Source of the DNA: Lentimicrobiaceae bacterium
Lineage (GTDB): Bacteria; Bacteroidota; Bacteroidia; Bacteroidales; F082
Reading direction: 5' to 3'
Length of the DNA: 64,000 nucleotides
Assembly (NCBI GenBank): GCA_031262365.1
Contig: JAISHW010000052.1
Span: forward strand, 1-64,000
Part shown: one piece after another, positions 1-17,699 of the stretch
Position numbering within the stretch: position 1 is the stretch's first letter
Layout of the letters: each line of letters starts with the position of its first letter
The notes under the pieces: model-generated
What the model saw: only the letters and a program-made list of their open reading frames with translations
Databases searched by the model: none
Told to the model about the DNA's origin: nothing
Program-made: the position numbers and the translations under genes

Positions 1-157
1 AACAGCCGGTTGGTGTTTGATGTCAGCGGAGGGCAGGTTTGGGGCGTGAGCGCGGTAGTTTCATGAAAATTTGGTTTTTATTCTTTGTTAAAAGTTAAAA
101 AACAAGCAAATGTAAAAAAAGTTTTTAATTCAAAATGTAATTTTGAGAAATTAGATT
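1..157. repeat. Long direct repeat, copy 1 (partner at 1201-1357)
   Basis: These 157 bases recur at 1201-1357 with three substitutions (at 20, 35 and 52). The left end is cut by the window edge, so the repeat may be longer. About 60 bases are clearly GC-richer than the surroundings and the rest is AT-rich. Read on the minus strand the unit holds a TACATTTG -7 element (107-114) followed by a 13-codon ORF (23-64). Copy 2 lies just upstream of the T9SS gene at 238-1137. Copy 1 would be upstream of whatever leftward gene lies beyond the window. Confidence 0.9.
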
Positions 158-237
158 GGGCTGGATTTTCTTTTGTGTAGAACGACACTCAAAAAACACA
201 CTAATACAAAATAATTTTTTCATGATAGATTTGTTTT

Positions 238-1137
238 TTAGCGGTTTATTACTACTCGTTTATTCCACACTTTTTGATCGTTTTGTATGCTTACTATATA
301 AATTCCCCCACTCAAACTGTTTAGCGAAACATAATGTTGATTTCCCATAAATATCTCTGTAAGCAGTAAGCGACCGGAAAGGTCATTGACGAAAATCGTA
401 CTGGTTTGAGTCGAATTTTCGGGCAATACAATATTAATACCGGAAGAAGTCGGGTTTGGGTAAATGGAAATTTTATTGAATGACGTTTCTCCTATTCCGG
501 TATCATCAACATCAACGTGAACTTTGTAAAAGTAAAGGAGAGGAGAAGGAAAAGTTTCGCTGCAATTATGTTCGTCTATTGCAGTAAGATGATAAACTGT
601 TGTAGTGGTTGGTTTCGCCCAAAATCCATCTGCGACAAAGCAGTCGCTTACAATGCTTTCACACGGAGACCATGAGAATGTAGAATAGGGATTCAATACA
701 GAAACATTCCCTTGCAAGAAAACGGAATCACCACTATTGATATAATAATCAAATTGCAGATATTGAGGGTCGTTCGAATAATTTATTTGCCGGTCAGACA
801 TTGTGATTAGTACGGAGTCGATGTCAGAATTTCCGGCAGCATCGGTAACCTCAACATAAACGGTACCGTTGCCAAGAAAAATGACAGATGGATTTGAGTT
901 TGTTTCTGACTGTATGTAGTAGTCTTGGTCGGACACTGCCCACCATTGATAGGTATAAGGAGGTTCGCCGCCGATAGCCGTTGGATTTCCACCCAATGTG
1001 GTTTGAATCCAATCTGTTTCAAAACAAAAATGCCGGTCTTCGCCGGCATTGGCTTTCAGCGATTCTTGTGCTTGCGTTTGTTTTGGCATCAGAAACACAA
1101 TGCCAACTATAAAAAACAAGAAACTAATCTTTTTCAT
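238..1137 (-). CDS. T9SS type A sorting domain-containing secreted protein
   Basis: A 299-residue exported protein of unknown specific role. It starts with a clear signal peptide (Lys-Lys, a hydrophobic run, then TQAQ). Residues about 28-115 look like a PKD/SprB-type beta-sandwich repeat, with a GGNPTAIGGEPPYTYQW-type signature. The last ~75 residues form a type A Por-secretion sorting domain, with IYPNPTSSG, a DLSGR turn and a C-terminal GIYIVSIQ...KRVVINR strand pair. By family knowledge such domains send the protein across the outer membrane by the type IX system. No enzymatic motif is visible, so adhesin or matrix protein is the best guess. The gene sits between two copies of a 157-bp repeat, and copy 2 probably supplies its promoter. 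Confidence 0.85.
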   Translation of the reverse strand: MKKISFLFFIVGIVFLMPKQTQAQESLKANAGEDRHFCFETDWIQTTLGGNPTAIGGEPPYTYQWWAVSDQDYYIQSETNSNPSVIFLGNGTVYVEVTDAAGNSDIDSVLITMSDRQINYSNDPQYLQFDYYINSGDSVFLQGNVSVLNPYSTFSWSPCESIVSDCFVADGFWAKPTTTTVYHLTAIDEHNCSETFPSPLLYFYKVHVDVDDTGIGETSFNKISIYPNPTSSGINIVLPENSTQTSTIFVNDLSGRLLLTEIFMGNQHYVSLNSLSGGIYIVSIQNDQKVWNKRVVINR

Positions 1138-1222
1138 GATTTATTTGATTTTTATTAAAAACTATATGAATAACCTTTTTTTTTGTTCCCTCCTTTGCCA
1201 AACAGCCGGTTGGTGTTTGGTG

Positions 1223-1264
1223 TCAGCGGAGGGCGGGTTTGGGGCGTGAGCGGGGTAGTTTCAT
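1223..1264 (-). other. 13-codon ORF inside the repeat (possible leader peptide)
   Basis: The minus strand reads MKLPRSRPKPALR followed by TGA. The same peptide is encoded by the other repeat copy (23-64), and the two substitutions between the copies inside this ORF are both third-position and silent (proline codons). It begins about 43 nt downstream of a TACATTTG -7 element. A leader peptide is an inference. Two silent changes are too few to prove selection, and the ORF may be fortuitous. Confidence 0.3.
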
Positions 1265-1306
1265 GAAAATTTGGTTTTTATTCTTTGTTAAAAGTTAAAA
1301 AACAAG

Positions 1307-1314
1307 CAAATGTA
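1307..1314 (-). promoter_or_regulatory. -7 promoter element TACATTTG within the repeat
   Basis: It matches the Bacteroidota TAnnTTTG -7 consensus on the minus strand and points toward the short ORF and the T9SS gene. An identical element is at 107-114 in copy 1. No good -33 TTG was found at the usual 19-21 bp, so activity is inferred. Confidence 0.4.
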
Positions 1315-1399
1315 AAAAAAGTTTTTAATTCAAAATGTAATTTTGAGAAATTAGATTTTCTGAATAAGAAAAAAGACAAGCAAAACGGTGAATATGTGT

Positions 1400-16461: not shown

Positions 16462-16513
16462 AAAAGTAAATTTTGGGGTAAAGTTACCGCTTTTTTAGGC
16501 TTCATGTCAACCT

Positions 16514-16590
16514 TGTCTTGTCCTAAAATAGGTTTACACCAAAAAGAGTAAAAATAACTAAAAAGAGTAAACTTATTTCAGGACAAGACA
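16514..16590. mobile_element. 77-bp inverted-repeat element (MITE-like or IS relic)
   Basis: The ends are 24-bp inverted repeats with two mismatches, beginning TGTCTTGTCCT and ending with its complement. The core carries a repeated AAAAAGAGTAAA word. The TGT...ACA termini recall insertion-sequence ends. There is no coding capacity, and I could not define a target-site duplication. It lies between the queA terminator and the S46 peptidase start. Confidence 0.5.
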
Positions 16591-16593
16591 CAA

Positions 16594-16625
16594 ACAAAAA
16601 GAGCCGATCTAATGACCGACTCTTT
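16594..16625 (-). terminator. Rho-independent terminator after queA
   Basis: The minus strand reads AAAGAGTCGG, an 8-nt loop, TCGGCTCTTT, then a T-rich run. It starts 25 nt after the queA stop. Confidence 0.7.
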
Positions 16626-16649: not shown

Positions 16650-17699
16650 CTACAAAATCAACATAGCATCGCCAAAAGTAAAGAAGCGGTATTTTTCGGC
16701 TACGGCTTCTTTGTAAGCTTTCATCAGAAAGTCGTATCCGGCAAAAGCTGCTACTTCCATCATCATTGGTGATTTTGGAAGGTGGAAATTGGTTACCATT
16801 GAATTTGCTACGGAAAAATCGTAAGGCGGAAAAATGAATTTATTTGTCCAACCGGCATAAGATTTTACTTTACCTGATATGATTACAGCCGACTCTAAAG
16901 CTTTCATTGTTGTTGTGCCGATGGCGCAAACTGAACTTCTACGAGCATTTGTTTGGTTAATGATTTGTGCGTTTTCTTCATCGATGAACATCTCTTCCGA
17001 ATCCATTTTATGTTTCGTAAGGTCTTCTACTTCAATGGTTCTGAAATTTCCCATTCCGGTATGTAACGTTATTTCGGCAAACGAAACACCAATCAGTTCG
17101 AGGCGTTTCATCAACGATTTGCTGAAATGCAAGCCTGCTGTCGGCGCAGCAATAGCTCCTTCGTTTTTAGCATATATTGTTTGGTAATTTTCTTCGTCTT
17201 CCGGTTCGACCGGTCTATTGTGAATTTTCGGAATCGGTGTTTCGCCAAGTGTTTGAATCGTTTTTTTAAACTCTTCATAAGGTCCGTCGAACAAAAAACG
17301 TAAAGTCCGTCCGCGCGAAGTGGTGTTGTCGATTACTTCGGCGACTAATGAATCGTCTTCGCCGAAATAAAGTTTGTTGCCTATTCTGATTTTACGTGCC
17401 GGATCGACCAATACGTCCCAAAGGCGGCTTTCGTGGTTTAATTCGCGAAGCAAGAATACTTCTATTTTGGCACCTGTTTTTTCTTTTTCGCCATACAAAC
17501 GAGCGGGAAAAACTTTTGTGTTGTTCAAAACAAAGAGGTCGCCATCTTTGAAATATTCCAAAATATCTTTAAATGAGCGGTGTTCGATTGTTTGATCCTT
17601 TCTATTAAGAACCATCAAACGCGATTCGTCGCGATTTTTTGCAGGATGATTTGCGATGAGTTCCGGAGGAAGGTTGTACTTAAATTGTGATAGTTTCAT
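16650..17699 (-). CDS. queA: S-adenosylmethionine:tRNA ribosyltransferase-isomerase
   Basis: A 349-residue enzyme that transfers and isomerises the ribosyl part of SAM onto preQ1-tRNA, making epoxyqueuosine at position 34. It is recognisable from [18 protein letters not shown] at the start, the family blocks [13 protein letters not shown] and [10 protein letters not shown], and the C-terminal [10 protein letters not shown]. Length is typical. The other queuosine genes are not in this window. Confidence 0.96.

Follow-up and report, generated by a model that had tools for sequence, protein, structure and literature searches.

Repeat copies at the end of contig C83

The window, the 64,000-nt stretch of DNA that we analysed, comprises bases 1-64000 of contig C83 in a draft genome of 2.23 Mb and 119 contigs. 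At its beginning, a T9SS cargo gene on the minus strand lies between two direct repeat copies, and the features of this locus are collected in Table 1. The copies are spaced by 1200 bp and are 98% identical, with three mismatches. Thus, the near-identical repeat pair of the preliminary description is real. However, its unit length of 157 bp and its count of two copies do not hold: homology between copy 2 and the copy in contig C108 amounts to 256 bp, and the genome contains at least six copies, four of which are cut by contig ends. These are C83:1-157 (contig end), C83:1201-1357, C112:1-156 (contig end), C108:4860-5042 (complete) and the ends of C107 and C106, the last two forming a second subtype of the repeat.

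Table 1 Features of the repeat locus in the window.
Feature	Position	Strand	Remarks
Repeat copy 1	1..157	-	3' side truncated where contig C83 stops (window base 1)
13-codon ORF, copy 1	23..64	-	Identical to the C108 and C112 ORFs
-7 element TACATTTG, copy 1	107..114	-	Read in the sequence
5' extension of copy 1	158..247	-	Common to ~199 with C112 and C108, to 247 with C107
T9SS cargo gene, 299 aa	238..1137	-	MKKISFLFFI signal peptide, 187-aa mature region, C-terminal Por_Secre_tail
Leader hairpin, copy 2	1188..1233	-	Outer stem CCCUCC/GGAGGG, inner stem CCAAACA/UGUUUGG
Repeat copy 2	1201..1357	-	Homology to C108 covers window 1108-1356
13-codon ORF MKLPRSRPKPALR, copy 2	1223..1264	-	Probably incidental
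G-quadruplex-type motif GGGCGGGTTTGGGGCGTGAGCGGGG	1231..1255	+	Template strand, copy 2 only
-7 element TACATTTG, copy 2	1307..1314	-	Upstream TTG at 1331-1333

Since C83 ends at window base 1, the length of 157 bp reflects the assembly break at one limit and the 5' divergence of copy 2 at the other. The last position at which C83 copy 1 differs from C112 (a T7/T6 run) is exactly 119 bases away from base 1, and the 157 bp consist of these 119 bases and the stretch as far as the divergence of copy 2. The same 119-mer terminates both C83 and C112, and C107 and C106 likewise end in a common 119-mer. Four further pairs of contig ends have 117-119 identical bases in common, and C96 and C107 are joined by an overlap of 119 bases. 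Therefore, the breaks are best read as junctions in the graph of an assembler with k = 119, which is the apparent assembly k-mer. Many contig ends carry T9SS genes (for example, C40/C42, C28/C74, C43/C100, C59/C94 and C96/C107). With 117-119 identical bases common to such ends, the assembly is fragmented at genes for secreted proteins. The ends of further T9SS genes are likewise repeated and interrupt the assembly, so that secreted T9SS proteins may be under-represented in short-read genomes.

On the 5' side, the extension of copy 1 contains a block, GTTCTAYACAAAAGAAAATCCA, which is common to five of the six copies (C83 copy 1, C112, C108, C106 and C107). The extension also has a stretch homologous to the C-terminal coding ends of T9SS genes in C107 and C35. 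An intrinsic-terminator hairpin is present upstream in both C106 and C108, and recurs in C102 without the promoter part.

Putative promoter and genes attached to the repeat

The minus strand of each copy was described as containing a -7 element, and this element is present: TACATTTG matches the Bacteroidota -7 consensus TAHHTTTG, the -33 motif being weak in genome-wide data (PMC6847099). With its AT-rich upstream sequence, the putative promoter resembles the sigma-ABfr promoters of Bacteroidota (TTTG / TAnnTTTG). It differs from them in the short spacing between TTG and TACATTTG. The sole upstream TTG is 16 nt away in copy 2, and the spacing is 15 nt in C108 and C112, which have one T fewer. 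Within 100 bp of T9SS genes in this genome, TAnnTTTG shows sense-strand enrichment (13 versus 4 of 35).

Copy 2 lies upstream of a secreted-protein gene, as the preliminary description stated, and the gene product carries the Por_Secre_tail domain (PF18962 at residues 225-297 of 299 aa, E 3.4e-12). The gene starts with MKKISFLFFIVGIVF, and its signal peptide was judged by eye. For copy 1, the preliminary description placed another gene beyond the window; that position is past the end of contig C83. In the gene downstream of the C108 copy, the sorting domain is likewise above the cut-off. The genome was searched for copies of the repeat and the downstream genes were recorded: among the six copies, only those of C83 copy 2 and C108 can be followed on the 3' side, and both head T9SS cargo genes (2/2). 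In these two copies, a leader of about 165 nt is followed by genes starting with ATGAAAAAGATTAGTTTCTTRTTTTTTATA (MKKISFLFFI). Their nucleotide identity passes the start codon, continues through ~31 nt (~10 codons) of coding sequence and then falls. The two cargo proteins can be aligned solely in the C-terminal sorting domain, and their mature parts are unrelated. For each mature part, separate relatives exist in other genomes (best identities 36-44%); these have different signal peptides, and the leader was not found in their readable upstream regions.

Five of the six copies adjoin a T9SS gene. In addition to the two readable copies, the contig-end copies in C83, C112 and C107 come after T9SS genes; the C106 copy comes after thymidine kinase, and a T9SS gene is not visible there. 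Given that the genome has 65 Por_Secre loci, this adjacency is far above chance; a rough estimate, on the assumption of ~1,900 genes, is ~1e-5, but the copies are not independent if they are tandem duplicates. The idea of a dispersed promoter and leader unit is thus supported by both readable copies. However, the unit does not control the T9SS family at large: a handful of the 65 loci carry or adjoin the repeat, and the orthologues in relatives are without it in the upstream regions that were readable.

Two upstream regions in relatives have features of another kind. At L115 (relative G077:C317), a CT-rich simple-repeat tract (TCTCATC-like), which is possibly phase-variable, lies ~130-215 bp upstream of the start of a cargo homologue. 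At L129 (relative G049:C9), a GC-rich palindromic block, unrelated in sequence to the window leader, lies upstream of a homologue of the C108 cargo gene.

Leader hairpin, C-rich tract and 13-codon ORF

Folding of the C108 leader gave a hairpin with stem arms of 20 nt (-39.6 kcal/mol, z -7.4), and the copy 2 hairpin is a weaker version with an unremarkable z of -1.7. Downstream of the hairpin, the RNA is A-rich and has no U-tract, and the hairpin is not an intrinsic terminator. When the leader was masked in the folding, no convincing alternative or competing stem was exposed at the main start. A search of the genome for the hairpin as a REP element, within 3 mismatches, returned just the two full copies. 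Rfam gave no match for the leader, and two tRNAs were the only hits in the window at the gathering threshold. Among 198 relatives, only weak AT-rich promoter matches were obtained and the leader was not found. In collections that may lack records close to this genome, exact-pattern scans found neither the hairpin nor the ORF in GTDB genome contigs, nor the hairpin in viral contigs.

Across 316 kb of this genome, no other 50-nt segment is as C-rich and G-poor as the ORF region (C-G = 23; C-G = 19 in three other copies). Among the 35 T9SS upstream regions examined, the C-rich tract is absent from all except that of the window gene itself. On the template strand, GGGCGGGTTTGGGGCGTGAGCGGGG is the sole G-quadruplex-type motif within the window, and the bases at which copy 2 departs from the remaining copies extend its runs of G.

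The 13-codon ORF, MKLPRSRPKPALR, is present in both copies, and its two changes (CCG/CCC and CCT/CCC) are silent, as had been noted. From this ORF, it was proposed that a proline- and arginine-rich leader peptide could act by attenuation. Because of the C-rich tract, such control would mostly take a Rho-type form: translation of MKLPRSRPKPALR would cover the C-rich stretch, open the hairpin and prevent Rho-dependent termination or relieve a block, and the untranslated C-rich RNA would be a Rho entry site. In keeping with this, the ORF coincides with the extreme C-rich tract, its stop codon (UGA) sits in the 5' arm of the hairpin, and it is intact in 4/4 readable copies. Leader-peptide attenuation has been reported in flavobacteria and is suspected in B. 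thetaiotaomicron (PMC9723704, PMC7366714), and the short ORF, the stop within a hairpin and the long 5' UTR are features that the leader has in common with such attenuators.

However, three of the four intact ORFs are identical, so that only two sequence variants are compared and little information is gained; the chance that two random ORF changes are both silent is p~0.08. ORFs of at least 13 codons arise in 38% of leader shuffles and comparable ORFs are found upstream of 13/33 other T9SS genes, which places this ORF at chance level. The AUG of the leader ORF has U at -3 and -6, a poor start context, whereas A at these positions favours translation initiation in Bacteroidota (PMC6847099). In contrast to known attenuators, the leader has neither a terminator nor a convincing alternative structure, and the main start, 85-92 nt past the leader stop, is embedded in A/U-rich sequence. 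The attenuation proposal is therefore unsupported, and we regard leader control through MKLPRSRPKPALR as unlikely. The ORF most likely results incidentally from a C-rich stretch behind an AUG, and the peptide is rich in proline and arginine because the C-rich tract encodes such residues. A coding reading of the GC-rich part on the antisense strand was also rejected: by eye, all three copy differences would alter an amino acid.

Probable duplicated 5' module and other repeats

A multi-copy 5' module is common to unrelated T9SS cargo genes and was not found in the sampled relatives. We consider it probable, at roughly 0.6, that this is a lineage-specific duplicated module composed of promoter, structured leader and signal-peptide start, which was recombined before unrelated T9SS cargo and acts as an ordinary promoter and 5' UTR. 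Its parts would be the intergenic upstream block, the sigma-ABfr-type promoter (TACATTTG), the hairpin leader and the first codons of the signal peptide. Recombination or duplication may have spread the module in front of unrelated cargo proteins. Several secreted proteins would then have one transcription start and one mRNA leader in common, and the hairpin probably acts on the stability of the mRNA or on its structure close to where ribosomes land. In the window, the near-identical direct copies may leave the intervening gene open to loop-out and duplication. Several observations weigh against this reading: four of the six copies end at contig ends and only two can be read into a gene, the C106 copy is next to thymidine kinase, the TTG spacing is short, and the z of the copy 2 hairpin is low in magnitude. 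If the 5' module is transferable, it would offer Bacteroidota a simple means of placing new surface proteins behind a promoter and signal peptide that they already have. For control at the mRNA level, the C-rich leader is a concrete and testable candidate.

Alternatively, the repeat could be a mobile element, either a MITE or a mobile promoter, which brings a promoter with it when it inserts upstream of genes. The copies are dispersed with differing upstream flanks, there are genuine MITE-like families in the same genome, and Porphyromonas gingivalis has a promoter-bearing MITE, BrickBuilt (PMC4596501). Like BrickBuilt, the repeat is a dispersed intergenic repeat in a Bacteroidota genome; BrickBuilt has promoter activity, and the promoter here is predicted. 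Unlike BrickBuilt, it has no terminal inverted repeats and its homology carries on into coding sequence. In an inverted-repeat search of the full C108 copy, the only strong pairs were the leader hairpin and the upstream terminator. Precise ends and a target-site duplication were not found: the 5' ends vary among copies, and both full 3' sides enter the coding sequence of the downstream gene. Therefore, the repeat is not one of the MITE-like families, and given also its strong bias toward T9SS genes, a mobile element seems improbable. A stronger version of the duplicated module, in which a transferable T9SS 5' module is recombined onto new mature domains, leader translation tunes Rho termination and the whole set is co-regulated, appears to us quite doubtful.

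In multigene surface-protein families such as mycoplasma vsp/vlp, a shared 5' region with promoter and signal peptide precedes divergent bodies. The conserved 5' flank and signal-peptide start before unrelated mature parts are similar here; the T9SS cargo differs in that it keeps a conserved C-terminal sorting domain. A diversification system, in which the 5' module serves as a recombination cassette and new mature domains are placed behind a single expressed start, possibly with the aid of the G-quadruplex motif, would fit the identical 5' ends before unrelated domains, the repeated C-terminal coding ends (C107/C35) and the position of the G-quadruplex-type motif in copy 2, but it is very unlikely, because all readable promoter copies appear intact, so that there is no single expression site, and the other copies are without the motif.

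Other repeats were observed in this genome, in a survey that covered the T9SS loci and is hence biased to their surroundings. One MITE-like family of ~120 bp has terminal inverted repeats GGGAGCTTCTAAAAAT...ATTTTTAGAAGCTCCC and 11 copies in the sampled loci (C102:1-130, C109:13907-14036, C50:68454-68572, C63, C74, C88, C11, C6, C34, C105 and C90). A second MITE-like element of ~80 bp has the ends TGTCTTGTCCT/AGGACAAGACA; its window copy at 16513-16600, which reads TGTCTTGTCCTAAAATAGG...AGGACAAGACA, lies 3' of the gene at 16650-17699, and further copies are present in C107, C42, C50 and C40. Tandem intergenic repeats of ~104 bp with the palindrome TTCCGACCTTCGTCGGAATGAC are located near T9SS genes, at C86:2427-2815, C28:22632-22966, C42:11053-11371, C66, C101, C80 and C31.
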